Shown: in pieces, positions 3,207 through 15,788 of the stretch | Numbering within the stretch: the stretch's first letter is position 1 | Layout of the letters: each line of letters starts with the position of its first letter | Source: an uncultured Paracoccaceae bacterium | Lineage (GTDB): Bacteria; Pseudomonadota; Alphaproteobacteria; Rhodobacterales; Rhodobacteraceae | Length of the DNA stretch: 64,000 bases | Assembly: GCA_947497065.1 (NCBI GenBank) | Contig: CANMEQ010000005.1 | Coordinates: 1 to 64,000 of the forward strand | Reading direction: 5' to 3' | The notes under the pieces: model-generated | The model's input: the letters and a program-made list of their open reading frames with translations, nothing else | Told to the model about the DNA's origin: nothing | Databases searched by the model: none | Position numbers and translations under genes: made by a program

Positions 3207-3955
3207 TTTCTATTCGAAATGTGTCCTATCAGATCGGAAGCACCATGATCTTGTCGGACATTTCTTTGGAAATACCGAAAGGAAAAGTGACGGCACTGAT
3301 CGGGCCAAACGGAGCCGGAAAATCAACGCTCCTGTCCCTCATCGCCCGGCTCGAGCGATTGCAAAGCGGCACGGTGCGCGTGGGCAATCTTTTGGTGGGC
3401 GAGTGTTCAAACCGAGAGCTAGCACAACACCTATCAATTTTGCCGCAAACGCTAGATCAGGCCCCGCGGTTATCTGTGAGAGAGCTGGTCTCTTTTGGTC
3501 GCTATCCCTACCATCAGGGTCGGCCTCAGGCCGAGGACAACCGTGCCGTTGATCATGCTTTGACGGTGTTTGGCTTGGCGGACTTGGCGCAGCGCCCATT
3601 AGATGCGCTCTCCGGCGGGCAACGGCAACGCGTACAAATCGCAATGAACTTCGCGCAAGATACCGAATATATGTTGCTCGACGAGCCTCTGAACAACCTG
3701 GATATCGCGGGCGCGCGGTCATTGATGGCCTTGCTGTGCGATGTGTCAGAGCGCCACAGCAAAACAATCGTCATCGTCTTGCACGATATCAACTACGCAA
3801 GCCGATACGCGGACCATATCGTTGCAATGCAAAACGGAACAATCATGGCGGAAGGTACGCCGAGTGAGATTGTGAACGCGGATCTATTGCGCGACGTGTT
3901 TCAAACCAATGCCGAGATCATGCATGTGGACGGTGTACCTATCGTTTTGGTTTAA
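3203..3955 (+). CDS. Iron-siderophore ABC transporter ATP-binding protein
   Basis: Cytoplasmic ATPase of 250 residues that powers the importer. Walker A GPNGAGKST is near residue 34, the signature LSGGQRQR near 136, Walker B MLLDEPLNNLD near 156, and the switch His is in VIVLHDINYASRYAD. The start overlaps the second permease by ATGA (3203-3206). The stop codon is shared with the convergent hmuV gene: TTAA at 3952-3955 supplies TAA on both strands, leaving no room for an intrinsic terminator between the two operons. Confidence 0.92.
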   Translation: MISIRNVSYQIGSTMILSDISLEIPKGKVTALIGPNGAGKSTLLSLIARLERLQSGTVRVGNLLVGECSNRELAQHLSILPQTLDQAPRLSVRELVSFGRYPYHQGRPQAEDNRAVDHALTVFGLADLAQRPLDALSGGQRQRVQIAMNFAQDTEYMLLDEPLNNLDIAGARSLMALLCDVSERHSKTIVIVLHDINYASRYADHIVAMQNGTIMAEGTPSEIVNADLLRDVFQTNAEIMHVDGVPIVLV

Positions 3956-4740
3956 CGAAGGTTGGCCACCTGCGGCAAAATATAGGGCACGTGACAGTGC
4001 TGGGTCGGGGCAACGTTCACGCGTACACGACATCCGTAGGCCCCTGATAGGTGGTCGTCGGTCAGCACATGCTGCGCATCGCCTTGAACAACTCTACGGC
4101 CATTTTTCATCAACAAAATTCTGTCGGCGAACATCGACGTCAGGTTGAGGTCGTGCATCACGGCAATTACGCCCCCGCCGTTGTTTGCGAAACTTCTAGC
4201 GATTTCCATCACCTCGAGCTGGTGGCCGATATCAAGCGCAGAAACAGGTTCATCTAGGAACAACCAAGAGGGTTTTCCATCGCGCGTAGGCTCCCAAACT
4301 TGCACAAGAACCCGTGCCAATTGGCACCGTTGTTGTTCACCACCCGATAGCGCGTGGTAAAGTCTGCCTTCGTAGCCAGCTAGCCCAACATGTTCCAGCG
4401 CACGTCGGGGAAGTGTGCTGTCATTGCTTCCAAGACCTGCGATAAGCCCAAGCCGTACAACTTCCAAAACGGTGAATGGGAAGGCTAGACCCGCGTTTTG
4501 CGGGAGCACAGCGCGCCGCGCGGCGAGGGCTGGGGCTGGTATTGCTTTTACATCTTCTTGGTCGAGCAGGATTGAGCCCGTATAGGGAAGCTCACCGGTC
4601 ATTGCCTTGAGGAGTGTTGTCTTGCCTGATCCGTTGGGGCCGACAATCGCCGTCACGTGACCAGCTTGGCCTTCGAAATTCACACCATGCAGAATGGCCG
4701 TTTTGCCCAATGACACATTAATGTTTGTTGCAATCAGCAC
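3952..4740 (-). CDS. hmuV: Haem ABC transporter ATP-binding protein
   Basis: ATPase of the haem importer, 262 residues. Walker A GPNGSGKTT, signature LSGGEQQR, Walker B WLFLDEPVSALD and the switch region VMHDLNLTSMFAD are in order. It appears to start at a GTG (4740) three bases after the hmuU stop. Last gene of the - strand operon hmuS-hmuT-hmuU-hmuV. Assignment to haem rather than another chelate rests on the hmuS and hmuT neighbours. Confidence 0.9.
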   Translation of the reverse strand: MLIATNINVSLGKTAILHGVNFEGQAGHVTAIVGPNGSGKTTLLKAMTGELPYTGSILLDQEDVKAIPAPALAARRAVLPQNAGLAFPFTVLEVVRLGLIAGLGSNDSTLPRRALEHVGLAGYEGRLYHALSGGEQQRCQLARVLVQVWEPTRDGKPSWLFLDEPVSALDIGHQLEVMEIARSFANNGGGVIAVMHDLNLTSMFADRILLMKNGRRVVQGDAQHVLTDDHLSGAYGCRVRVNVAPTQHCHVPYILPQVANLR

Positions 4741-4743
4741 GGT

Positions 4744-5823
4744 TTAAATATCCAAAACGCCGCGACTGCGCAGCAATACAAACAAGAAAAATGGGCCTCC
4801 GATAGTGGCCGTGATGATACCAATCGGCAGTTCGCTGGGGGCAACGATAACGCGTGACACCATATCGGCGGCAAGTAGAAACGCGGCACCGAGCAATGCT
4901 GAAATGGGTAAAAGAAACTTATGGCTTGGGCCGATGGTGAGGCGGAGCAAGTGCGGCACAACGATACCAACAAAACCGATCCCGCCAGACACTGCGACGG
5001 AGGCACCTGTAGCGCATGCAACCGTTAAAATCGCGATGTTTTTCATACGTTGGACGGGGATTCCCAGATGCCAAGCGGTGGCCTCGCCCAAGGTTAGTGC
5101 ATCTAGTCCACGGGCAAGGAATGGCATCGTAGACAAGGCCAATATCATCAAGGGCCCCGCGACAAGCAATTTGGTCCACGTCGCCCCTGCGAGAGACCCA
5201 AGCCCCCAGAACGTCAAATCGCGAAGCTGATTATCATCCGCAATGTAGACCAACACCCCTGCGATAGCGCCAGTCAGCGCGCCGAGCGCTATTCCTGCGA
5301 GCAACATGACCGCCACAGATGTGCGCCCTTTCCGGGTCGCGATACGGTAGAGCAAAAGTGTAGAAGCCCAGCCGCCTAAAAACGCCGCGATTGGAATTGT
5401 GTACATGCCAGCGACGGCGGCAATTCCGGCGGGTAGAAGGCCTCCCAATACAATTGCCAAGATCGCACCAAGCCCGGCGCCAGCGCTGACACCAACCAAA
5501 CCAGGGTCGGCCAAGGGGTTGCGAAACAGGCCCTGCATCACCGCACCGGATACCGCCAAAGATGCACCAACAAGCGCGCCCAATAATGTACGCGGGGCGC
5601 GAATGTCGAACAGAATGACCTTTTCCCGTAGGCCAATCTGTTCGCCAGATGCCCACGTGAAGAGGGCCTGCAGCAAGGATGTACCCGACGCGCCAACCGT
5701 TAAGCTCGCGATTATCATCATCAAAAGAAGTGCCGCGCATAAGATCAAAACAACCAAAGCTTGAGGGCCGCGATCACCTGCCTGAGGGGGCGAAAGCCTT
5801 ATACCAGCGTCGAGGATCGCCAT
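4744..5823 (-). CDS. hmuU: Haem ABC transporter permease
   Basis: FecCD-family inner-membrane permease of 359 residues. About ten hydrophobic segments are evident. The region DIRAPRTLLGALVGASLAVSG near residue 75 and the loop GGIGFVGIVVPHLLRL near residue 275 are the two best conserved family features. It probably works as a homodimer, since only one permease gene is present here, unlike the siderophore importer next door. It lies 3 bases after hmuT and 3 bases before hmuV in a tightly packed operon. Confidence 0.92.
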   Translation of the reverse strand: MAILDAGIRLSPPQAGDRGPQALVVLILCAALLLMMIIASLTVGASGTSLLQALFTWASGEQIGLREKVILFDIRAPRTLLGALVGASLAVSGAVMQGLFRNPLADPGLVGVSAGAGLGAILAIVLGGLLPAGIAAVAGMYTIPIAAFLGGWASTLLLYRIATRKGRTSVAVMLLAGIALGALTGAIAGVLVYIADDNQLRDLTFWGLGSLAGATWTKLLVAGPLMILALSTMPFLARGLDALTLGEATAWHLGIPVQRMKNIAILTVACATGASVAVSGGIGFVGIVVPHLLRLTIGPSHKFLLPISALLGAAFLLAADMVSRVIVAPSELPIGIITATIGGPFFLFVLLRSRGVLDI

Positions 5824-5826
5824 GGC

Positions 5827-6663
5827 CTAGTTCTGCCCATAAATTGCAGCATGCAATGTTTCTGCAGCTTCAGGCGTTCGCGGACCAAAGCCCAACAGCA
5901 GCAACCCATCGATCCGGACAAGGGATTGTGTTTGCGCTGCAGGAGTGGTTGCGATTGCCGGATGCGCCCAAAGTGCGGTGTCTGCGATGCTGTGATCACC
6001 GTCCCGGATCATCATCACAATCACCTCTGGGGCCGCAAGCGTGACAGCTTCATCGGTCAATGGTTTGTATCCCTCAAAGCCGGTTACAGCATTGGTTCCG
6101 CCAGCCAGTTGAATAATACCATCAGCGGCCGTGTTGGTGCCGGATGCCATTATCCGCCCGCCTTGGACAGATAGAATGAACATAACGCGGGCAGGATCGT
6201 CGACATGCGTGTCGAGCGCTGCAAGCTGGGCATCCACATCCATCGCCAAAGCTGTGCCTTTTTCGGGCACGCCAAGGGCTTCTGCGACAGATTGAATTTT
6301 GTTTGACACGGCGGTGCGATCAAAGCCGTCGGGTATCGTGATGAAGGGTATCTCGGCGCTTTCAAGCACCTGCACTGTTTCCAATGGGCCGCTGCCATCT
6401 TCGGCGATAATCAACGTCGGATTCACCGATAAAACCCCTTCAGGGGATAGGGCCCGCATGTAGCCAACGTCCGGCAGGTCTTCAGCGATGGGTGGAAAGC
6501 TCGAGGTCGTGTCGCGTGCGACGAGACGGTTCTCTTCACCCAACGCGAAGATAATTTCGGTGATTGATCCCCCGACCGACACAATGCGGTCCTCCGCAAA
6601 GGCCATTGTCGAGAGGGGGGCGACAGCGGTGGCCATAAGGATAGCGCGAAACAAAGTGTTCAT
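5827..6663 (-). CDS. hmuT: Periplasmic haem-binding protein
   Basis: Haem-binding component of the importer, 278 residues with an N-terminal signal peptide (MNTLFRAILMATAVAPLSTMAFA). The start of the mature protein, DRIVSVGGSITEIIFALGEE, matches the HmuT/ShuT/PhuT opening, followed by VARDTTSSFP and LPDVGYMRALSPEGVLSVNP. It should pass haem from the outer-membrane receptor to HmuUV. It sits 3 bases after hmuS and 3 bases before hmuU. Confidence 0.9.
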   Translation of the reverse strand: MNTLFRAILMATAVAPLSTMAFAEDRIVSVGGSITEIIFALGEENRLVARDTTSSFPPIAEDLPDVGYMRALSPEGVLSVNPTLIIAEDGSGPLETVQVLESAEIPFITIPDGFDRTAVSNKIQSVAEALGVPEKGTALAMDVDAQLAALDTHVDDPARVMFILSVQGGRIMASGTNTAADGIIQLAGGTNAVTGFEGYKPLTDEAVTLAAPEVIVMMIRDGDHSIADTALWAHPAIATTPAAQTQSLVRIDGLLLLGFGPRTPEAAETLHAAIYGQN

Positions 6664-6666
6664 AAC

Positions 6667-7713
6667 TTAAGCGTCCTCAAGGTGAAGCTGGGGCAGGGTC
6701 GCGATCAGGTCTTTGAACGCACCAGTGTGATCTACCGTGTCTGTTTCTTTGCGACGTCCAAACATTTGAAGAATGAGCGATCCATCTTTGTCGAACGCTT
6801 CGATTGAAACGGCCATGCCGCGTTTGGTTGGTTTTTCCACGGCCCAGACTTCTGCAACATGGTCCGTCCGTAGGTGCAGATTGAAACGAGGATCTAACAC
6901 ATTCTGCCACGGCCCCATCGGTTTGATGGTGTTCAGCGGTCCGGTGTGAATTTGGATGCAGCCGCGATTTCCGACAAACAGCATGATTTCAGTTTCAGCG
7001 TCACCCAACGCGATGATTGCATCGTTCAGCGCCCAAGGGGCCAACGGTTTTACAAATGGTTTTCCGGCAATGCGGTAGGCCCCGAGCCTGTTCATACTTA
7101 ACTTAGACGTGAGGCGCATGAATTGGTGCGTGTCCGTCATTTTTGACCATTCGGCACGGAGCGTCTCGGCCTTCGCAGGGTCTGCTTTGGCCGACTTGAC
7201 AGCCGCGCGCGGCGTCAGGTTGAGCTCAGCGGCATCATCACCCTTTGACAGGTGCTTCAGCATCTCATCCCATGCGCGCAGATCCGTGTCCGGGCGGGCG
7301 AAAACCTTATGTACGGCATCACCCGCCGCGTCGAAAAATTGCATTGAGCGTTGGGTGCCATTCTCGGTCTCTTTGGTCTGGGCCAAGCCATACACCCAAT
7401 GGCTGCGAAAGATCCGGAGGTCGATATCATCATTGATGACCATCGAGGCATGCGGCCCGCCACGGTAGTTTTCATAGACACCTGTCTTCTCATGAACAGC
7501 GCTTTCGTTGCGTGTCAACGCCATCACGGGGCCAACGGTGTTCAGCGCTGGCATGATTTGATCTGGATCAGCGGCAATGGGCATGGCGCCCGATGCTGCC
7601 ACCAGTGCGGCTTCGCCGACGCCCAGTTCTTTGGCTGCGTCACGAGTTCGTCTTTTGGGGTGGTCGTTGAGATAGGCGCGAATTGCATCCGGGGTGGGCT
7701 GGGCCATCGTCAT
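6667..7713 (-). CDS. hmuS: Haem utilisation/degradation protein HmuS
   Basis: Cytoplasmic haem-handling protein of 348 residues, the usual length for the HmuS/HemS/ChuS family, built from two similar halves. Visible family features include AVHEKTGVYENYRGGPHASM, an early DLRIFRSHWVYG and the second-half counterpart GNRGCIQIHTGPL with DPRFNLHLR. Members bind imported haem and either pass it on or break the ring; which applies cannot be read here. First gene of the hmuSTUV operon, divergent from the receptor operon. ATG 7713 has GAGGA about 8 bases upstream; an internal ATG at 7707 is possible. Confidence 0.9.
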   Translation of the reverse strand: MTMAQPTPDAIRAYLNDHPKRRTRDAAKELGVGEAALVAASGAMPIAADPDQIMPALNTVGPVMALTRNESAVHEKTGVYENYRGGPHASMVINDDIDLRIFRSHWVYGLAQTKETENGTQRSMQFFDAAGDAVHKVFARPDTDLRAWDEMLKHLSKGDDAAELNLTPRAAVKSAKADPAKAETLRAEWSKMTDTHQFMRLTSKLSMNRLGAYRIAGKPFVKPLAPWALNDAIIALGDAETEIMLFVGNRGCIQIHTGPLNTIKPMGPWQNVLDPRFNLHLRTDHVAEVWAVEKPTKRGMAVSIEAFDKDGSLILQMFGRRKETDTVDHTGAFKDLIATLPQLHLEDA

Positions 7714-7801
7714 TTGGCAGTCCTCATGTTGGTGTGTTTAACAGTGAGAGCTGGCGCATTGGCTGGCTGAGGAAGTTTCGCAACTTCTTTACTTGACTGT
7801 T

Positions 7802-7814
7802 TTAATCGGATTAA
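7802..7814. promoter_or_regulatory. Perfect palindrome TTAATC-G-GATTAA in hmuS/hmuR promoter region
   Basis: Thirteen-base perfect palindrome in the 203-base gap between divergent hmuS and the haem receptor. A one-base-degenerate copy lies before the siderophore importer at 305-318. Its position between two divergent iron operons fits an operator; this is inference. Confidence 0.45.
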
Positions 7815-7828
7815 TTAGCAGCGGCAAG

Positions 7829-7845
7829 AGAATATCTCATATTCT
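7829..7845. promoter_or_regulatory. Perfect palindrome AGAATAT-CTC-ATATTCT
   Basis: Seven-base perfect arms around CTC, 15 bases from the TTAATCGGATTAA palindrome and about 70 bases before the receptor start. It may be a second operator or overlap a -10 region. The outer bases resemble part of the ICE motif described for Irr, but the spacing differs, so I do not assign it. Confidence 0.4.
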
Positions 7846-7916
7846 AAGCAAGCCATCGACACATACCTCGGCCAGCTAACACGAAAGCATCACGCCAATA
7901 GGGCTGAGGGGAAAAG

Positions 7917-9995
7917 ATGACACATGCAAAGCGCGCCTTATTGGGCGCAACAGTTCTAACGTCCGCAGTATTTTTGCATGCAACCGTCGCGGTTGCGCAA
8001 GACAATGAAAGCGTCACAGCATTGGGGCGGATCGTTTTAGGGACAGGTTTCGATAACACTGTCGCAATTGATACACCGCAAGCCGTAACGGTTTTAAATC
8101 AAGACGATATCGAAGATCTGCAGGCTTCGACGATTGGCGAATTGTTCGATTTGATCCCTGGGGTGCAGGCAACCGGATCAGGGCGCGCGCTTGGTGAATC
8201 TTACAATATCCGCGGAATCGGGTCAGGTCTCTCTTCGGATGAATCGCGGATTGTCGTTAACCTGAACGGTGCCACAAAATATTATGAGCAATACCGCTTG
8301 GGTAGCTTCTTTTCTGATCCCTTGTTGTTTCGCCAAGTAGAGGTGTTGCGAGGCCCAGCGTCTTCAACTCTATATGGGTCCGGAGCGATTGGTGGCGTCA
8401 TAAACGTAGAAACGCGTGACCCGTCAGAATTTCTTGAAAATAGCGATCGTGCGGTTAGCACGCGATTGACTTACGGGTCGAATGGCGATGAACTTTCCGC
8501 GTCTGTGATCGCAGCCGAACGTGCAGGGGACTCGCTAGAGAATTTAATTGCGCTGAGTTACCGTGAGACAGGAAATTACACAGATGGTTCGGGCAACGAA
8601 GTTGTTGGCTTAGGGGCTGAGGCGCTTTCAGGCTTGGTAAAGTCTCGTCTAACGTTTGGCGATGACCGTGCCCAGGCGCTCACGTTTTCGTATTTGAGAA
8701 CCGACAGCGATAACGAAGATCAATCGTTGGATCAGATCACAGGGCTGAGCCCCTTTTTCGGGACGGTCGACCGGCACATCGTCGATGAAACGTGGACTGT
8801 AAAATACGAAAATGAGTTTTTCGGGAATCCGCTTCTCGATTTGGATGTGACGCTCAACTACTCCGACACGCAGAACACCCAAGAAAATGGGTCTGCAGCC
8901 TGTTTCCCAGGTTTCGGCGCGGTTATCTGCGATTCTGATTACAGCTACGCGACAACGTCGTTGCGGGTCGAAAATGTTTCTGAATTTTCTAGCGAGAATT
9001 TTGAAGCCTACGTGACAACTGGTTTGCAAGTGTCGAGCCAAGAACGCACTGGTGTGGCCGACACACTCCCAGGGATTTTTGACCCATCCGCGGCAACCTT
9101 CCACCCGGAAGGCACGGATGAGAAGATCGGATTTTATGCGCAGGGTGAGTTGGTCTTCAATGATCGGCTGACAGTCATCCCTGGCATCCGGATCGACCGA
9201 GTATTCCTTAGTTCCGAAGAGGATTTTGTAAACGGAGTTGATTTGACGGATTCAACTGAAACGTTGGTGTCGCCAAAACTCGCAGTCGCTTATGAGATCA
9301 ACGATACCTATTCCGTGTTTGGCTCTGTCGCTCAAACGCAGCGCGCACCCACGTTGGATGAACGCTTCACCGTCGCAGACCCCGATGGAACCGGGGACAC
9401 ATTTAGCGTCAACCTTAAACCAGAGACGGCGACCAATGCTGAGATTGGTCTAGCCGCATCCTACTTTGGCATTGTTTCGCAAGATGATGTGTTCGATGTG
9501 AAAGCAACGGCATTTTACTACGATATTGAAAACTATATCGAACGTCTCGGCACAACGACCTACCAAAACGTAGATGCAGCAGAGGTTATGGGGCTCGAAA
9601 TCGAAGCGGCTTACGAGTCTGAGGCGTTTTTCGCGCGCGTTGCGTATTCCGACGTTCGTGGTGAAGACGCGGCAACAGGCGAGTCTCTGTCTTCAATTCC
9701 TGCCCGCAATTTGAATGTCACTTTGGGCGGTCGAACGCAGCGTCTCGGCCTCGAATATGGCGTTCAATCTGCAATATTTGACGACATCAACTATGGCGAT
9801 GGCGAGGAATATTCCGGCTATGCGGTGCATGATCTTTTCTTGAATTGGGAACCCCAGTCAGGGCCGCTTGAAGGCATTGATGTTGGTTTCCGTGTGAACA
9901 ATGCCTTCGACAAAGACTATCAGAATGCATTGATCGATGTCGCCGGCGAAGGACGTTCCTATGAAATCAGCCTCGCCCGTTCTTTCGAGTTTTAA
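7917..9995 (+). CDS. TonB-dependent outer-membrane haem receptor
   Basis: Receptor of 692 residues. A signal peptide ends near residue 28 (VAVAQ), followed by a possible TonB box around LGRIVLGTG, a plug domain with TPQAVTVLNQDDIEDL, VEVLRGPASSTLYGSGAIGG (classical plug end) and a long beta-barrel finishing in Phe (RSFEF). The barrel has QTQRAPTLDERF and NLKPETATNAEIG, which resemble the FRAP and NPNL boxes of haem receptors (HmuR/ShuA). Divergent from hmuSTUV and first in an operon with ExbB, ExbD and TonB, so haem or haemoprotein is the likely ligand. Confidence 0.85.
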   Translation: MTHAKRALLGATVLTSAVFLHATVAVAQDNESVTALGRIVLGTGFDNTVAIDTPQAVTVLNQDDIEDLQASTIGELFDLIPGVQATGSGRALGESYNIRGIGSGLSSDESRIVVNLNGATKYYEQYRLGSFFSDPLLFRQVEVLRGPASSTLYGSGAIGGVINVETRDPSEFLENSDRAVSTRLTYGSNGDELSASVIAAERAGDSLENLIALSYRETGNYTDGSGNEVVGLGAEALSGLVKSRLTFGDDRAQALTFSYLRTDSDNEDQSLDQITGLSPFFGTVDRHIVDETWTVKYENEFFGNPLLDLDVTLNYSDTQNTQENGSAACFPGFGAVICDSDYSYATTSLRVENVSEFSSENFEAYVTTGLQVSSQERTGVADTLPGIFDPSAATFHPEGTDEKIGFYAQGELVFNDRLTVIPGIRIDRVFLSSEEDFVNGVDLTDSTETLVSPKLAVAYEINDTYSVFGSVAQTQRAPTLDERFTVADPDGTGDTFSVNLKPETATNAEIGLAASYFGIVSQDDVFDVKATAFYYDIENYIERLGTTTYQNVDAAEVMGLEIEAAYESEAFFARVAYSDVRGEDAATGESLSSIPARNLNVTLGGRTQRLGLEYGVQSAIFDDINYGDGEEYSGYAVHDLFLNWEPQSGPLEGIDVGFRVNNAFDKDYQNALIDVAGEGRSYEISLARSFEF

Positions 9996-9996
9996 T

Positions 9997-10440
9997 ATGA
10001 AAAATAGATGTTTTGAAAAAGGCCTTGGCCTGGCAATTGCTCTCCTCGTGTCGTTGCCAGCGCCAATCCTTGCCCAAGAGGGAGCCGTAGATGCGGTTCC
10101 CTCGATCAAGGTTGAGTTGAACAGCACGTTACAATTGGACGCGGCATGCCAGCTGACCTTCATGCTGAAAAATGACCTTGCCGCCGATGTCGAGGCGTTG
10201 GTGTTCGAAACTGTTTTGCTGACCACGGCGGGTGCCGTAGATCGCCTGACATTGTTTGATATGCGCGACCTGCCTAGCGGTACGCCTCGTGTTCGGCAGT
10301 TTAATGTCCCTTCGTTGGCCTGCGATGCTTTGGGCCAAGTCTTAATCAACGGCGTTGCCGAATGCTCCGTTGGTGAGAGCGCATCTTGTGCCGACGCCTT
10401 GACCTACTCCTCGCGGATCGACGTGGAGATTTTGGGATGA
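9997..10440 (+). CDS. Secreted four-cysteine protein of the TonB operon (unknown function)
   Basis: Not recognised with confidence. Protein of 147 residues with a signal peptide (hydrophobic core GLAIALLVSLPAPILAQ), so it is probably periplasmic. The mature part has four cysteines (C51, C109, C123, C131), suited to two disulfides, and alternating beta-like segments such as CQLTFMLKND and ALVFETVLLTT, giving an Ig-like impression. I chose ATG 9997, two bases after the receptor stop, because it gives a clean signal peptide. The end overlaps exbB by ATGA. Its position between receptor and ExbB suggests an accessory role in haem uptake or motor assembly. Confidence 0.7.
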   Translation: MKNRCFEKGLGLAIALLVSLPAPILAQEGAVDAVPSIKVELNSTLQLDAACQLTFMLKNDLAADVEALVFETVLLTTAGAVDRLTLFDMRDLPSGTPRVRQFNVPSLACDALGQVLINGVAECSVGESASCADALTYSSRIDVEILG

Positions 10441-11051
10441 ATATCTATGCCGCCGTCCTGCAGCGTTTGACGGCTATTTACGACCTCGGTGGTCCCGTTG
10501 TTCTTTTAATGTTGGGGTTATCCGTCCTGTCGCTTAGCGTCATTCTCTGGAAGATCTGGCAGTTCATCCGATTGGGTGTTGGGCGAGAGGATCAGATTTT
10601 AGTCGCAATTAACGAATGGGATCGCGGCAATCGCGAGGCTGCTGAAAGTGCTTTGCAAAAAAGCCGGAATAGCCTCTCCAACGTCTTGAGAAATACAAAA
10701 GAAAACGCGCCGAAAACGCTGATTGAGGGCAAAGCAGGAGCACATATTACGACCTTGGAAGCAGGGTTTAGAGCCTTAGACAGCATCGCGCAGATTGCGC
10801 CGTTGCTAGGTTTGTTCGGGACCGTGCTGGGCATGATCGATGCGTTTCAAGCGTTGCAGCAGGCTGGAAATTCTGTGGACCCATCACTATTGGCAGGCGG
10901 GATTTGGGTTGCCCTTTTGACCACGGCTGCCGGCCTTGCTGTAGCAATGCCAACTTCTCTGGTTTTGACGTTCTTCGACAGCCGTGTTGCGCGTGAACGT
11001 ATGCTGGCTGAAAGCGCAATTGAATCTAAATTCGCAGCGATGGCGGCGTAA
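10437..11051 (+). CDS. exbB: ExbB/TolQ-family proton channel protein
   Basis: Inner-membrane motor subunit of 204 residues. An N-terminal helix (VVLLMLGLSVLSLSVILWKI) is followed by a cytoplasmic segment and two helices with the conserved APLLGLFGTVLGMIDAF and LAGGIWVALLTTAAGLAVAM regions, which hold the channel-lining Thr residues of the family. ATG 10437 overlaps the preceding stop by ATGA. It forms the ExbB ring that drives TonB with the two downstream ExbD proteins. Confidence 0.92.
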   Translation: MNIYAAVLQRLTAIYDLGGPVVLLMLGLSVLSLSVILWKIWQFIRLGVGREDQILVAINEWDRGNREAAESALQKSRNSLSNVLRNTKENAPKTLIEGKAGAHITTLEAGFRALDSIAQIAPLLGLFGTVLGMIDAFQALQQAGNSVDPSLLAGGIWVALLTTAAGLAVAMPTSLVLTFFDSRVARERMLAESAIESKFAAMAA

Positions 11052-11056
11052 GTGTG

Positions 11057-11443
11057 ATGGCGTTGCGGATCGCGACCCACCGGCGCAAGCGATTGTCGAT
11101 GACGTCATTGATTGATGTTATCTTCCTGCTTTTGCTGTTCTTTATGCTGAGCTCCACGTTCACGCGGTTTTCGGAAATTCCATTGCTCGGGGCGACAGCA
11201 GGCAATGCGACCGCTAACTTAGATACTGCTCCTCTGTTCATTCGATTGGATGATCAGACTGTTCAATTGAACGGTCAAAACCATACGTTTGATACATTGA
11301 TCGATCAGATAGATGAGATTGCAGACAATGAAGGGCAAAGGATTTTGATTGCCCCGCGTGACGCTGTGACGTCGCAACGGCTTGTCGATCTTCTTGTTGT
11401 TTTGGCGGCACGGCCTGATCTGTCCGTGGTTGTGTTGGAGTAG
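11057..11443 (+). CDS. exbD: ExbD-family protein 1 (retains transmembrane Asp)
   Basis: Single-pass inner-membrane protein of 128 residues. The helix SLIDVIFLLLLFFMLSS begins near residue 17 and keeps the family's essential Asp, here D20, which in ExbD/TolR carries the proton step inside the ExbB pore. The periplasmic part contains QRILIAPRDAVTSQRLVDLL. A GTG at 11054 directly before ATG 11057 is an alternative start. It lies 5 bases after exbB and 3 before the second exbD. Confidence 0.92.
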   Translation: MALRIATHRRKRLSMTSLIDVIFLLLLFFMLSSTFTRFSEIPLLGATAGNATANLDTAPLFIRLDDQTVQLNGQNHTFDTLIDQIDEIADNEGQRILIAPRDAVTSQRLVDLLVVLAARPDLSVVVLE

Positions 11444-11446
11444 CAC

Positions 11447-11842
11447 ATGGCTTTGACCAAACGCGCTCGTCGCCCACAATCTGAACCTACGATTGCCTTG
11501 ATTAATATCGTATTTTTGATGCTCGTGTTCTTCATGATCGCAGGAGCGCTGGCGCCCACGTTGGACGATGAGATCAGCTTGATCGATACCGCTGAGCTTG
11601 AGGGCCGCGCGCCGCCAGACACCGCCGTGTTGAGGAAGGATGGTTCGCTCATGTTGCGCGGCGTAGCGGTTACGGCCGAACAAGCCGTGAGTGCCTCACA
11701 AGAAAGACCAAACGGCCTAGACGTGCGCCTGGTCGCGGATCGCGCTGTGCCTGCAAAGGTGTTGATGGCGCAGGTGTCACAGCTTCGTGCGGCGGGAGCT
11801 CAGTCCGTGTGGTTGGTGACTGAACGTGGTGTTGAACAATGA
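11447..11842 (+). CDS. ExbD-family protein 2 (Asn in place of the transmembrane Asp)
   Basis: Second ExbD-like protein, 131 residues, with one N-terminal helix (ALINIVFLMLVFFMIAG) and a periplasmic domain containing LDVRLVADRAVPAKVLMAQV. At residue 20, the place of the essential Asp in its neighbour and in E. coli ExbD, it has Asn. It is otherwise intact in length and layout, so this looks like a specialised partner rather than a decaying copy. It probably forms a mixed dimer with ExbD 1. It overlaps tonB by ATGA at 11839-11842. Confidence 0.9.
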   Translation: MALTKRARRPQSEPTIALINIVFLMLVFFMIAGALAPTLDDEISLIDTAELEGRAPPDTAVLRKDGSLMLRGVAVTAEQAVSASQERPNGLDVRLVADRAVPAKVLMAQVSQLRAAGAQSVWLVTERGVEQ

Positions 11843-12792
11843 AGTATCGGAAATCCACCGCGACATTCCTCGCTGTTTCGGTCGCTATTCATGGCGCATT
11901 CGTTTTCGCGATGTCGGTGCCTGACTCAACGCCAAGCGCAGCCGGACCACCGCCTGCCTTGGTCGCACAAGGCAACAGTTTCGAAGACTTGGCTCAAGGG
12001 GCACAGCCTGCCTCGCCCGAGGTTATGCCTACAACTGATGCTGTCGAACTCGCCGAGCCTCCCCCGGCCCAAGCATCTGCCACGCCTAGGGTGCCTGCAC
12101 AGACCGAAACAGCTATCGCAGGTCTTCAAGTGATGCCCGAAGAACTAAGCGAAACACCGGCCGACATTTCGGCAACGGTATCCGCCCCCAGCTTGCAGCA
12201 CGTGCCGCCAACTGCGCCGTCCCAAGCATCCGTTGCGGAGACCGTGCGAGTTTCTGCTGCGCAGCCGCAAGTTATTGAGGCTCTGCCAGATGTAGAGGTG
12301 CGAGAGGCCACCGCAGAAACCGTGCGCCCATCACGCCGGCCTGCTAATCTGGGACAAACGCCTCCTCCGCCGCCGCCACAACAACCCGCGCGCCAAGCCG
12401 CTTCGTCGCCGCGGGGAAACGCATCTGAAAATGCGCAACGGGGCATCGCGGCAGTCTCTCAAAACCCGGGGCAAGCGACGCAATCGGGGCAGGGGCATCA
12501 GGTTGATCAAGCCGCTGTTGCAGCCGCTCGGCGCGCCGCTGCAAACTATGGAAATGTGGTCATGCGCGAAATAAGTCGGACGCGCCGTCAAAATGTCCGC
12601 GCGCGTGGTGTAGCTACCGTCAGTTTCCGCGTCGGAGCCTCTGGCCAATTGGCGTCTGTGGGCATTGGTCGCAGTTCAGGAGACGCTGATTTGGATAGAA
12701 CCGCCGTTGATCATATCCGTCGTGCGGCGCCATTTCCGCCTCCGCCAGCGGGTGCTCAGACGACCTTTTCGGTACAGTTCCAAGGACGCTAG
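11839..12792 (+). CDS. tonB: TonB family energy-transducing protein
   Basis: Protein of 317 residues. The N-terminal helix near residues 10-27 (SVAIHGAFVFAM) carries the Ser-x3-His pattern typical of TonB. A long Pro/Ala/Glu-rich periplasmic spacer (residues 30 to about 220) includes PPPPPPQQP. The C-terminal domain has VATVSFRVGASGQLASVGIG, SSGDADLDRTAVDHI and APFPPPPAG, standard for TonB C-termini. Last gene of the receptor operon; it likely serves both receptors in the window since no other TonB is visible. Confidence 0.92.
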   Translation: MKYRKSTATFLAVSVAIHGAFVFAMSVPDSTPSAAGPPPALVAQGNSFEDLAQGAQPASPEVMPTTDAVELAEPPPAQASATPRVPAQTETAIAGLQVMPEELSETPADISATVSAPSLQHVPPTAPSQASVAETVRVSAAQPQVIEALPDVEVREATAETVRPSRRPANLGQTPPPPPPQQPARQAASSPRGNASENAQRGIAAVSQNPGQATQSGQGHQVDQAAVAAARRAAANYGNVVMREISRTRRQNVRARGVATVSFRVGASGQLASVGIGRSSGDADLDRTAVDHIRRAAPFPPPPAGAQTTFSVQFQGR

Positions 12793-12933: not shown

Positions 12934-14931
12934 ATGAAACTTCTAAAACTATCGACCTGTATCGTGCTGGGCATGGGCCCGGCAGCAGCATGGGCACAAG
13001 ACTTAAACGCAACCGAAGATTTTGCCGCAGAGTCTGTTTTCTTGGGCACTATTTTTGTGTCTGCACCACTTAACCCAGAAGCCGAAGATGGCGTCTCAAT
13101 CACCAGTGAAGCATTGGCGTTAAGCAATCCTGCTGACCTGTCCGAACTTTTCGCTGCAGAACCCACGCTATCTGTTGGCGGGGGCATTCCTGTTGCGCAA
13201 AAACTGTACGTAAACGGAATTGAAGAAAACAATCTCGCGATTTCGATCGACGGCGCGCGCCAGAATAACCGTATTTTTCACCACAACACGACGACACTGA
13301 TTGATCCTTCGCTTCTACAAGCGGTGCGGATCGATCCCGGCGTCGCGCCTGCTGATGCGGGGCCTGCCGCATTAGCAGGGGCGTTGGAATACGAAACAGT
13401 AGATGTTGCTGATCTGTTGGACGCTGGGGATGACTTTGGTGGTTCGTTTAAAACTGAATACGATTCCAACGGTGATGTTTTCACAAATAGCCTGACAACC
13501 TATGCGCGCGAAGGGTCGTTTGAGGCGCTTGCATTTGCGCGCTACGCCACCGGGAATAATCGGACGGATGGCAATGACGATACAATCTTTGGGTCAGGCA
13601 CCAACCTGACCAGCCTTCTTGGGAAGTTCGCGTATGAAGCGGAAAACGGCGGTCGCTTCGAGTTTTCTCTTGAAGACGTCGCTGATGATGCGCTGCGCCC
13701 GTACCGTGCTAATATTGGTGCGCTGATTGGTGGGCGGCCTCTACCAGAAACCCGCAGCTACGATTTGACCCGCACGAATGTAAGCCTCGAATATACAACA
13801 ACGGCGCCTACCGATCTTTGGGATCCAACGCTCCGACTGTCATACAGTGGCACTACGTTGGTGAACGACGAAACGGATCTCTCAACCGCGCAATACACGG
13901 AAGGTGAAACCACCAGCTTGAATGGCGAGGTATCGAATACCTTCGCATTGGGCATGGGTGAATTGAATGCGGGGGTCGATTTCTTCAATGACGAAACCGA
14001 CATTTCGTATGAGCTGCTGTCCGACGCTGCAGAGAGCTATACGGCAGGAGAAGAACTCTCAAACATCGGGGTCTTTGCTCAACTGCGTGGTGAGCCGACT
14101 GCGAACACGCGGTTCTCAACCGGTGTGCGGGCAGATTTCCAAAACTTCACTGGGCTTGATGGGTCAACGCAGTCGACGAACGGCGTTTCATTCAATGCGT
14201 CTGGCGAAGTTGATGTGTCTAATAGCGTCACAATTGGTGCCGGATATTCGCATGTTTGGGGCGGAATTGAGCTGGCCGAAAACTATATCCTGAATCCAGC
14301 TTGGGACTATTCAACCGATGAAATCGAAGACGTGACAGCGGACAATTTCTATGTCGCTGCCAGCTATGAAATGGGTTCAACACTCTTCGACGCTAAGGTT
14401 TTCTCCACTGAGATCGATAACTCACGCGCTGCCAGCTACCGTGGTGGCGCCGCTGTGACTGCGGATGTTGAAGCAACTGGCTTTGAGCTGGGCGTTTCGA
14501 CAACGTGGGAAAGCGGTTTCCTCCGTGTCGGGTATGCGAACACCGAAACCGAGGTTAATGGCCTGTCTGCAGATTCCTTCAGCGGGAACTATCTTACCAT
14601 CCCGCTAGGTGAAATTGTCACCGTTCAAGCCGCGCATCAGTTCGAGAACGGTGTGATCTTTGGCGGCAACATTGAGCACGCTTTGGATTACACCTTGACG
14701 GATACGTTGTACACGAGCTCGGTCGACATCGCGGGATATACCGTTGTGAATACCTTCCTGGAGTATAGCCCAGAAAACATCGAAGGCCTGACGGTACGGG
14801 CCGAGGTAAACAACCTGTTTGACGAAGCCTACGTTGCACGCGCGACCTATGGCCAAGACTTCGCCGGCGAGGTCGAGCCGAACTTCGAAGAGGGCCGGTC
14901 GTTTGGCCTAAGTGTCGAATACACGTTCTAA
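12934..14931 (+). CDS. TonB-dependent outer-membrane receptor (probably ferric siderophore)
   Basis: Receptor of 665 residues. Signal peptide to about residue 21 (MGPAAAWAQ), then a TonB-box-like GTIFVSA, a plug with QKLYVNGIEENNLAISIDGA, DPSLLQAVRIDPGVAPADAG and ALAGALEYET, and a beta-barrel ending in Phe (VEYTF). The plug is less canonical than that of the haem receptor and lacks the usual 'RGP.S..YG' string. It stands alone between tonB and a convergent siderophore-reductase operon, so a ferric siderophore feeding the importer at 425-3955 is the best guess. A haem-type ligand cannot be excluded because IDGARQNN resembles haemoglobin receptors. Confidence 0.8.
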   Translation: MKLLKLSTCIVLGMGPAAAWAQDLNATEDFAAESVFLGTIFVSAPLNPEAEDGVSITSEALALSNPADLSELFAAEPTLSVGGGIPVAQKLYVNGIEENNLAISIDGARQNNRIFHHNTTTLIDPSLLQAVRIDPGVAPADAGPAALAGALEYETVDVADLLDAGDDFGGSFKTEYDSNGDVFTNSLTTYAREGSFEALAFARYATGNNRTDGNDDTIFGSGTNLTSLLGKFAYEAENGGRFEFSLEDVADDALRPYRANIGALIGGRPLPETRSYDLTRTNVSLEYTTTAPTDLWDPTLRLSYSGTTLVNDETDLSTAQYTEGETTSLNGEVSNTFALGMGELNAGVDFFNDETDISYELLSDAAESYTAGEELSNIGVFAQLRGEPTANTRFSTGVRADFQNFTGLDGSTQSTNGVSFNASGEVDVSNSVTIGAGYSHVWGGIELAENYILNPAWDYSTDEIEDVTADNFYVAASYEMGSTLFDAKVFSTEIDNSRAASYRGGAAVTADVEATGFELGVSTTWESGFLRVGYANTETEVNGLSADSFSGNYLTIPLGEIVTVQAAHQFENGVIFGGNIEHALDYTLTDTLYTSSVDIAGYTVVNTFLEYSPENIEGLTVRAEVNNLFDEAYVARATYGQDFAGEVEPNFEEGRSFGLSVEYTF

Positions 14932-14993: not shown

Positions 14994-15788
14994 TCAGGCG
15001 TTTGCGCGCGTTTCCTCTTGCTTGGCTTTTTGGTGTTCGTCTTCGATGAGCCCGATTTTCCAGTACCCTGAAATATAGGCGTCCCCTTTTGGTATCGCGC
15101 GGCGTTTGAGAATTTCTTCGCGTAAGGCTTTGATCATACCACTTTCACCTGCAATGCAGGTTTGGACAGACCCTTCACTGGGGGGCAATTCTTGGATGCG
15201 TTTGATGGATTGAGTTGGTGACTTATGTGGAACGGAATGGATCAACCAGTGCACATCCACGCCCTGCGGTGCATCAATGTTTTGCTGGTCCTCGGGGCTC
15301 GTTATTTCGAGGAAGGCGACACCTTTCGCATCACGCGGCATCGCCTCAAGCGTCACTGCAGCGACTGGCAAGGCCGACATATCTGCAGCAACGATGTAGG
15401 TGTCAGCGTAAAATTCCGCGAGTTTGACGGGGCCGGGACCCGCAAAACCTGCAATGTCTTCCGCTTTACAGCGCCGTGCCCATGAGCTGGCCGGTCCGGT
15501 ATCCCCATGATCCACAAAATCGACATCGAACTGTGCAGTATCGGGCCGTATGTGCCGGATGGTATAGGTACGAACATCAGGGCGCGGACCGTTTTCCAAT
15601 GCGGCAGTAAACGCCTCATCTGATTGGTCAACCTGCGGAATGAAAAGCTTGAAGTGAGCACCTTCAATGCCAGGCTCCAAGGTTTTGACCCATTCTGCAC
15701 AGAAGGTGACCCGGATCATGTTCTTTGTGATCCACGTTTTTGACAATACGTGCATAACGCGCGGTGCTGGTCGGGGAGGGCGTGCCAT
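14994..15788 (-). CDS. Siderophore-interacting protein (FAD-dependent ferric-siderophore reductase, SIP/ViuB-like)
   Basis: Cytoplasmic flavoprotein of 264 residues that would release iron from imported ferric siderophores by reduction. The FAD-binding part includes RPDVRTYTIRHI near residue 95 (the RxYT motif) and HGDTGPASSWA; the NAD(P)H-binding half contains YIVAADMSALPVAAVTLEAM and a C-terminal SGYWKIGL close to the 'YWr.G' ending of the family. Third gene of a - strand operon after two paralogous hypothetical genes (24-base gap). Converges on the second TonB receptor across a shared terminator. Confidence 0.88.
   Translation of the reverse strand: MARPPRPAPRVMHVLSKTWITKNMIRVTFCAEWVKTLEPGIEGAHFKLFIPQVDQSDEAFTAALENGPRPDVRTYTIRHIRPDTAQFDVDFVDHGDTGPASSWARRCKAEDIAGFAGPGPVKLAEFYADTYIVAADMSALPVAAVTLEAMPRDAKGVAFLEITSPEDQQNIDAPQGVDVHWLIHSVPHKSPTQSIKRIQELPPSEGSVQTCIAGESGMIKALREEILKRRAIPKGDAYISGYWKIGLIEDEHQKAKQEETRANA

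Follow-up and report, generated by a model that had tools for sequence, protein, structure and literature searches.

The haem-uptake locus described here encodes two adjacent ExbD proteins that bear aspartate and asparagine, respectively, at the same position of the membrane helix, and this raises the question of whether both chains enter one motor and, if so, how such a motor would operate. The window, i.e. the whole stretch of DNA that was analysed, is 64,000 nucleotides long and originates from an uncultured Paracoccaceae bacterium. The haem locus spans positions 3952-12792 and consists of a minus-strand hmuTUV-hmuS group divergent to a plus-strand hmuR-hypothetical-exbB-exbD-exbD-tonB group. 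It is flanked by a receptor-like gene and by the gene of an FAD protein, the last two entries of the following list.

3952..4740, minus strand: hmuV-like haem ABC transporter ATPase (PF00005), named by analogy with the TM1040 cluster
4744..5823, minus strand: hmuU-like haem ABC permease (PF01032, FecCD)
5827..6663, minus strand: hmuT-like periplasmic haem-binding protein (PF01497)
6667..7713, minus strand: haem-handling protein of the HmuS/ChuX type (PF05171 and PF06228)
7917..9995, plus strand: hmuR-like TonB-dependent haem/haemoglobin receptor (TIGR01785, 368 bits against a cut-off of 316.85)
9937..10440, plus strand: small protein with an N-terminal signal-like stretch, function not assigned (no Pfam or NCBIfam match at 0.001)
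10437..11051, plus strand: ExbB-type pore subunit (PF01618), with Thr129, Thr163 and Pro172 at conserved positions and Trp157 in a GGIW motif
11057..11443, plus strand: ExbD1, the Asp chain, lacking an acidic neck residue (PF02472)
11114..11116, plus strand: codon GAT of Asp20 in the exbD1 sequence
11447..11842, plus strand: ExbD2, the Asn chain, with the acidic neck residue Glu13 and with Ile16 where first genes have Thr (PF02472)
11504..11506, plus strand: codon AAT of Asn20 in the exbD2 sequence
11839..12792, plus strand: TonB, with an N-terminal SVAIH stretch and a TonB C-terminal domain (PF03544 and PF13103, both over cut-off)
12934..14931, plus strand: second TonB-dependent receptor-like protein (Plug domain PF07715; TIGR01785 below cut-off)
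14994..15788, minus strand: siderophore-interacting FAD protein (PF04954 and PF08021)

The ATG at 9997, located just past the receptor stop, is the likelier start of the small protein, and exbD1 could alternatively begin with a GTG at 11054. ExbB, ExbD and TonB are encoded together with a TonB-dependent receptor, as in a TonB energising system, and the receptor-like protein encoded past tonB is a possible client of the motor.

The initial annotation, made from the sequence, had placed Asp20 in the first ExbD and Asn20 in the second, and the two codons listed above confirm this reading. Both products pass the 25.4-bit cut-off of the Pfam ExbD family PF02472 (52.1 bits for ExbD1 and 39.7 bits for ExbD2). 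They score far below the 152.95 bits of the NCBIfam equivalog ExbD_1, TIGR02803 (20.5 bits for ExbD1 and 26.3 bits for ExbD2), and the ExbB of the window reaches 45.2 bits against the 206.2 bits of the equivalog exbB, TIGR02797. AlphaFold models display, in each chain, a folded periplasmic domain preceded by a single N-terminal helix, with a mean pLDDT of 75.1 and a pTM of 0.51 for ExbD1 and of 77.7 and 0.53 for ExbD2. The best PDB matches of the ExbD2 model are the ExbD periplasmic domains of 8pek (the best, E 8.9e-4), 8vgc and 8p9r. In an alignment with the solved ExbD chains 7ajq and 6tyi, Asn20 of ExbD2 falls on their membrane Asp, so that ExbD2 carries Asn at the position of E. coli Asp25, where a canonical proton-carrying ExbD has Asp; because of this residue, it was filed as an ExbD paralogue and not as a canonical ExbD. 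The genome of the window contains three PF02472 genes, namely the tandem pair and one single-copy gene with Asp (L001).

In order to read the conservation figures properly, the composition of the locus set has to be stated. The initial family set of 168 pair loci comprised the window twice (once as L004), 80 named genomes and 86 further stretches from genomes of the family; 167 of these pairs were Asp/Asn (D/N) and one, L164, was Asp/Asp (D/D). The extension relied on second-gene profiles run over 385 genomes of the class and 299 genomes of the phylum, from whose match lists 60 further stretches were chosen (59 new loci and one already counted). The pooled collection of 278 loci leaves out 14 others, i.e. 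12 repeats, L171 (a stub of two bases) and L205, a D/N pair dropped by mistake, and it yields 239 pairs, 38 single-copy genes and one lone Asn gene. As some loci are identical in sequence, unique counts are also given: there are 232 unique pairs, 226 of them D/N. Alignment A1 was made of 35 of 46 representatives, the Asp-type second gene L164 being left out, and alignment A2 of Asn-type genes only.

The first gene of the pair carries Asp in 239 of 239 cases and the second carries Asn in 233 of 239, with Asp in five (L164, L208, L231, L268 and L269) and Ser in one (L246); since the queries were Asn-type second genes and the peptide patterns used for the named genomes contained the Asn, these counts are not population frequencies and D/D pairs are under-sampled. 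Single-copy exbD genes carry Asp in all 38 cases. The D/N pattern is found in 170 of the 172 pairs of the family and in 63 of the 67 pairs elsewhere. According to the labels of the search tool and to our own count, it occurs in the family of the window and in 32 more families, three of them outside the class. One pair, L234, is D/N by position; it appears as N/D only when the reading frames are ordered by their ends. These figures bear on the simplest alternative, namely that Asn reflects decay or drift in a redundant second copy. GAT and AAT differ by one nucleotide, so that a single change could produce the Asn; the residue is nevertheless kept in 233 of 239 second genes, in 33 families, and identity to ExbD2 is as low as 27% among 35 Asn-type representatives (L164 excluded); drift, already refuted by this conservation, is scarcely credible. 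A sequencing error or chance is excluded on the same grounds, as the second gene carries Asn in 80 of 80 named relatives.

A first-gene profile, A3, built from the first genes of D/N pairs, permitted a search of 295 genomes of the family without recourse to the second gene, and 113 of them match at an E value of 1e-20 or better. The matches at 4.2e-35 or better correspond to 77 haem-type first genes in 75 genomes, and every one of the 77 is directly followed in 3' by a second gene, all pairs being D/N. The 77 second genes were taken as matches down to 1.3e-15 plus one at 4.9e-13, and two matches of similar score, G015 and G246, which belong to a second lineage, were left out. The initial annotation had called for an alignment of ExbD pairs from the haem loci of relatives and had regarded Asp in both copies, or a sequencing error, as fatal to its proposal; in this lineage, the 77 of 77 D/N pairs dispose of both objections. 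It had described D/N as a feature of haem loci, whereas such pairs are present in 32 further families. The presence of the pair is patchy: at 1e-20, the first-gene search gave no match in G145, which belongs to the genus of the window. When part of a single ExbD1 served as query at a strict cut-off, an order-level search gave no match in 292 genomes, an outcome that this cut-off and this query deprive of meaning. A plasmid search with a class-wide ExbD2 gave no match.

Another D/N lineage, divergent from that of the window, was observed in the same family (L160, L161, L163, L165-L168 and L170, and also L205, L207, L211 and L213). It displays motifs such as PSLTPMID in combination with IVPMIN and similar sequences, and the second genes of L160, L161, L163, L165-L168 and L170 are 28 to 33% identical to that of the window. 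At L196, ExbD1 and ExbD2 lie in one open frame. A natural fusion was considered and rejected, the junction reading like a draft-genome frameshift, and for this reason the locus was not used as evidence for a heterodimer; no other two-domain ExbD frame was found among the loci gathered at that stage.

The tight pairing also bears on a second alternative, in which two homodimeric motors share one ExbB, the Asp/Asp dimer being active and the Asn/Asn dimer serving as an inactive stator or peptidoglycan anchor. A PDB sequence search with both profiles (E 0.01) retrieved only ExbD/TolR entries, none of them described with two different ExbD chains, a picture that fits homodimers. However, among loci with a complete neighbourhood, no Asn-type gene was found without an adjoining Asp gene; the sole lone Asn gene, L240, has lost its upstream neighbour to the contig end. 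An inactive Asn/Asn complex would moreover be expected to compete for the same ExbB. Two motors of this kind are therefore very improbable.

The origin of the pair was addressed with a tree of 207 representatives, in which first genes are for the most part grouped apart from second genes. One supported set (84 rows, SH-aLRT 95) contains 81 Asn, two Asp and one Ser second genes, and the Asn genes of L236, L239, L247 and L249 are placed elsewhere. The D/D copies of L268 and L269 fall among the single-copy genes. Of the 204 inner branches, 120 are open, and the columns are few for the number of rows. The simplest reading of this tree would be a single ancient duplication after which Asn soon became fixed in the second copy, a second origin of Asn or reversals to Asp being possible.

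The two chains are further distinguished by residues outside the Asp/Asn position, numbered here relative to it. Thr is found at -4 in 227 of 239 first genes as opposed to four of 233 Asn genes. The neck (-9 to -5) includes an acidic residue in 36 of 38 single-copy genes and in 213 of 226 unique Asn chains, as compared to seven of 232 first chains; Asp or Glu at -7 accounts for 91% of the 226 unique Asn chains. The neck contains on average 2.0 Lys or Arg residues in first chains, 1.1 in Asn chains and 0.05 in single-copy proteins. The Asn chain retains the neck acid whereas the Asp chain has lost it, so that the paralogues appear to have shared out between them the two carboxylates of a single ExbD. 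The Ser-type second gene of L246 (G605), the sole case of its kind, retains the acidic neck and a hydrophobic residue at -4. Among the 168 family loci, helix conservation amounts to 3.82 bits in the Asn chain and 4.06 bits in the Asp chain, versus 2.40 and 2.23 bits in the rest of the respective proteins, and such near-equal values are expected if the Asn helix also lies in the pore.

The neck acid could be interpreted differently, as the replacement of the missing Asp about two helix turns towards the cytoplasm, in which case the heterodimer would possess two proton sites. The frequency of the acid in Asn chains speaks for this interpretation. On the other hand, single-copy ExbD has one too, so that the acid looks inherited and not like a new site; it is absent from 13 of the 226 Asn chains, and the ExbD2 model would place it where the membrane helix begins or ahead of that point. 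A second proton site at the neck is consequently unlikely. A compensating charge inside the Asn helix was also sought and rejected: no Asp, Glu, Lys, Arg or His occurs in the 14 positions following the Asn in 213 of 233 chains, and 20 chains have one.

The partner ExbB was inspected in the same manner. All 232 D/N systems, and likewise all 36 single-copy systems, retain the residues at the positions that we take to match Thr148, Thr181 and Pro190. Adjoining the Glu176 position, a Trp in a GIW motif occurs in 231 of 232 D/N systems (L251 could not be matched), in three of the five D/D pairs (L164, L208 and L231; L268 and L269 have Ser) and in the one D/S pair. None of the 36 single-copy systems has it: 30 display Ser, one Gly and one Ala, and four fall outside the motif without any Trp. 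Because D/D and D/S pairs have it as well, the Trp tracks the paired lineage and not the Asn itself; it may serve as a marker of that lineage, and Trp157 may narrow the pore. A loss of Glu176 as the partner of the Asn was considered and dismissed. This position is Val in 175 of 232 D/N systems but Glu in 44 of 232, and it therefore does not track the D/N pattern.

Contact between the chains was approached through covariation. A mean-field analysis of the 232 unique pairs (effective number 204) ranked ExbD1 (D1) Pro42 with ExbD2 (D2) Ser120 and D1 Phe38 with D2 Thr125 fifth and ninth. The plain mean-field signal is mixed with clade differences, and reliance was placed on shuffles within sequence clusters. 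Under such shuffles, the stretch D1 42-38, antiparallel with D2 121-125, ranks sixth of 15,498 stretches, and the five ranked above it all contain one extreme pair, D1 Met30 with D2 Phe29. With rare residues pooled, this strand stretch ranks 1, 2 and 1 of 15,495 inter-chain stretches at three cluster cuts, shifted by one step at the third, and third, fifth and tenth at the same cuts when within-chain stretches are included; with clipped values it ranks first and second. By origin, it ranks 12 and 1 in the 165 family pairs, and 246 and 88 of 15,498 in the 67 non-family pairs (effective number 58). Its score is 2.0 to 2.5 between D1 and D2, compared to 0.5 to 0.8 for D1 with D1 and 1.1 to 1.3 for D2 with D2, and the reciprocal stretch, that of the D2 strand with the last D1 strand, gives no signal (0.4 to 0.6). 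Some expected within-chain contacts rank high (D1 63 with 70 and D2 96 with 118), and so do several further stretches that match no placeable contact. For S. marcescens ExbD, the available text describes a swapped antiparallel strand (residues 44-49) as one of the elements that hold the homodimer together (PMC10771500). With Asp25 equivalent to position 20, this strand falls at about 39-44 in the present numbering, to which D1 42-38 corresponds. The covariation signal was first noticed in an exploratory run and then tested on the same data; it suggests, with moderate support, that D1 and D2 touch.

A last alternative is that a homodimer of ExbD1 constitutes the motor and ExbD2 an accessory or brake, located elsewhere or entering the pore only to shut it. 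The ExbD D25N protein is inactive in E. coli according to the accessible part of PMC11658791, so that the presence of an Asn chain could poison the complex. The haem-type Asp chain, however, was not found without the Asn chain (77 of 77), the Asn helix is conserved like a pore helix and the characteristic features are split between the chains; the suggested contact of the two is likewise at odds with a separate accessory. A brake or accessory role is accordingly rather improbable.

The best-supported explanation is an asymmetric motor: the two ExbD chains probably form an obligate heterodimer that serves as the axle of an ExbB pentamer (five ExbB, one ExbD-Asp and one ExbD-Asn), with one proton-carrying Asp and coupling to TonB. 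Of the asymmetric heterodimer proposed in the initial annotation, the D/N asymmetry proved conserved, while the heterodimer itself is backed indirectly, by gene pairing, complementary features, the ExbB Trp and covariation. The E. coli D25N result stands against such a motor, though both chains carry Asn in that mutant (PMC11658791, as far as its available text extends). The five D/D pairs and the D/S pair indicate that Asn is not required in every relative. If the products share one pore, 233 of the 239 pairs depart from the arrangement with Asp on both central helices that is expected of 5:2 ion-driven motors.

The mechanism can be envisaged as follows. ExbD1 and ExbD2 would assemble as an obligate heterodimer inside the ExbB pentamer and couple to TonB, the proton-binding Asp being held by ExbD1 alone. 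In the partial texts consulted, Asn in MotB serves to mimic the protonated form of Asp (PMC9389320, PMC9022066); the Asn of ExbD2 would similarly resemble a protonated Asp, sitting in the pore with neither uptake nor release of a proton. In most known structures, as summarized in the accessible part of PMC12905483, one Asp of the dimer is directed towards a conserved ExbB/TolQ Thr and the other towards the cytoplasmic cavity, and rotary models, in the portions available, assume 36 degrees per proton with two alternating Asp (PMC12215075, PMC9022066). In the D/N motor, one proton-driven stroke would take place whenever the Asp chain reaches an ExbB inlet; if the motor rotates, this would amount to one stroke per 72 degrees and five protons per turn, versus the ten implied by 36 degrees per proton. 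As the two ExbD domains accommodate a segment of TonB between them in the available account (PMC10771500), the unlike periplasmic domains may present TonB with one defined face at a phase fixed to the stroke. We infer the stoichiometry, the gearing and the phase-locking to TonB from these considerations. The motor may also have a set direction or a lower proton cost, as initially suggested for the pair.

Many alphaproteobacteria seem to power nutrient import with a motor of two unlike ExbD copies, only one of which would carry the proton-binding residue, although current models suppose it to be present in both. More tentatively, single-carboxylate motors could constitute a widespread natural class, although we hold this wider claim to be somewhat doubtful: in numerous families of alphaproteobacteria, and in a few Pseudomonadota outside that class, the two ExbD carboxylates would be split between paralogues assembled 1:1 in ExbB, each ExbB step would correspond to one stroke, a turn would consume half as many protons and TonB would dock at a single phase. 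If this is true, the alternation of two Asp is unnecessary for 5:2 motors. A natural motor apparently missing one Asp would allow models of rotation to be told from those of a single stroke or a switch, would offer a substrate for stepwise proton counting and would let structural work tell the ExbD chains apart. The suggested sequence rule for such motors (Asp in the first gene, Asn in the second and an ExbB with GIW) would also pick them out among genes annotated merely as 'biopolymer transporter ExbD'. No description of an Asp/Asn ExbD pair was found in the open PubMed Central literature, as represented mostly by titles and the openings of abstracts.

The closest known systems share some of these features. 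The ExbBD-TonB motor of E. coli and S. marcescens (6tyi, 7ajq and 8pek) resembles that of the window in its ExbB-ExbD-TonB set, in the ExbD fold and in the pore residues; in the available descriptions, those structures contain two copies of one Asp-bearing ExbD, whereas the window encodes two paralogues, one with Asn. The hmu cluster of Roseobacter, as described for Ruegeria sp. TM1040 in the available part of PMC5225302, comprises the same ten gene types as the window (hmuTUV, hmuS, hmuR, a hypothetical gene, exbB, two exbD and tonB), and the window follows its layout. The same partial text reports that the TM1040 cluster is induced 41 to 201-fold under iron stress and that an hmuR insertion mutant confirmed its role in haem uptake. 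Plasmid pP88_b of Phaeobacter inhibens has this operon as well. There, the second exbD is named only 'a duplicate of the exbD1 gene (exbD1a)', the Asp/Asn difference not being mentioned in that part, and the comparison was made by description and not by sequence (PMC5225302). Sphingobium SYK-6 likewise has a tandem exbD pair in a tonB operon, TonB1-ExbB1-ExbD1-ExbD2, which could not be disrupted; it differs in that Asp25 is reported, in the accessible text, as conserved in both ExbD1 and ExbD2, hence a D/D pair (PMC8599685). The AglRQS gliding motor of Myxococcus xanthus similarly associates two unlike MotB-like chains, AglQ and AglS, with one MotA-like chain. According to the portion of the source available, the conserved Asp is predicted in both AglQ and AglS, unlike in the present pair, and the formation of an AglQ/AglS heterodimer is called unknown (PMC9389320). 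The Campylobacter jejuni MotB D22N stator also uses Asn as a mimic of protonated Asp (PMC9389320, PMC9022066, both in part); it is a laboratory substitution, whereas the Asn of the window is natural and present in one of two chains.

The link to TonB was also apparent from gene neighbourhoods. A TonB homologue lies downstream in 75 of 82 haem loci; of the seven without a match, L075 has 153 bases left on its contig, L047 lies on a short contig and five are unexplained. Ten downstream genes were hand-chosen for a domain scan from 21 D/N loci inspected, the frames of L182 and L203 being excluded as not TonB-like, and a TonB C-terminal domain scored over cut-off in eight of the ten, the exceptions being L179 and L238. 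The D/D pair L208 is followed by a tonB gene, as are most D/N pairs, so that an Asp in the second chain cannot simply be equated with the absence of TonB; the D/D pair L231 adjoins a DUF4384 gene and genes of type VI secretion, and not tonB.

Three genes that follow D/N or D/S pairs, L179 1854-2801 on the plus strand, L238 338-1237 on the minus strand and L246 1533-2747 on the plus strand, display a TonB-like start (helix and linker) followed by a different, shared end (..GRLDI..GNRL..); in those of L179 and L238, no match to the TonB C-terminal domain exceeds the cut-off. An ExbB-ExbD-ExbD-DUF4384 cassette was observed on plasmids of Leisingera aquaemixtae (L231, 2405-5958) and Parasedimentitalea marina (L292, 3539-7024). 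It adjoins type VI secretion genes as well as caspase-family and OmpA-family genes, no tonB is located nearby and, in L231, both ExbD carry Asp; judging from gene content, the cassette may be a proton motor in a setting devoid of a nearby tonB. Finally, a homologue of the small protein is encoded close to the 5' side of exbB in 82 of 82 haem loci (the window, L034-L113 and L232), with a conserved Cys and an LTLfDF..LP.gRPRVRQF core, and this protein is possibly an extra part of the motor.
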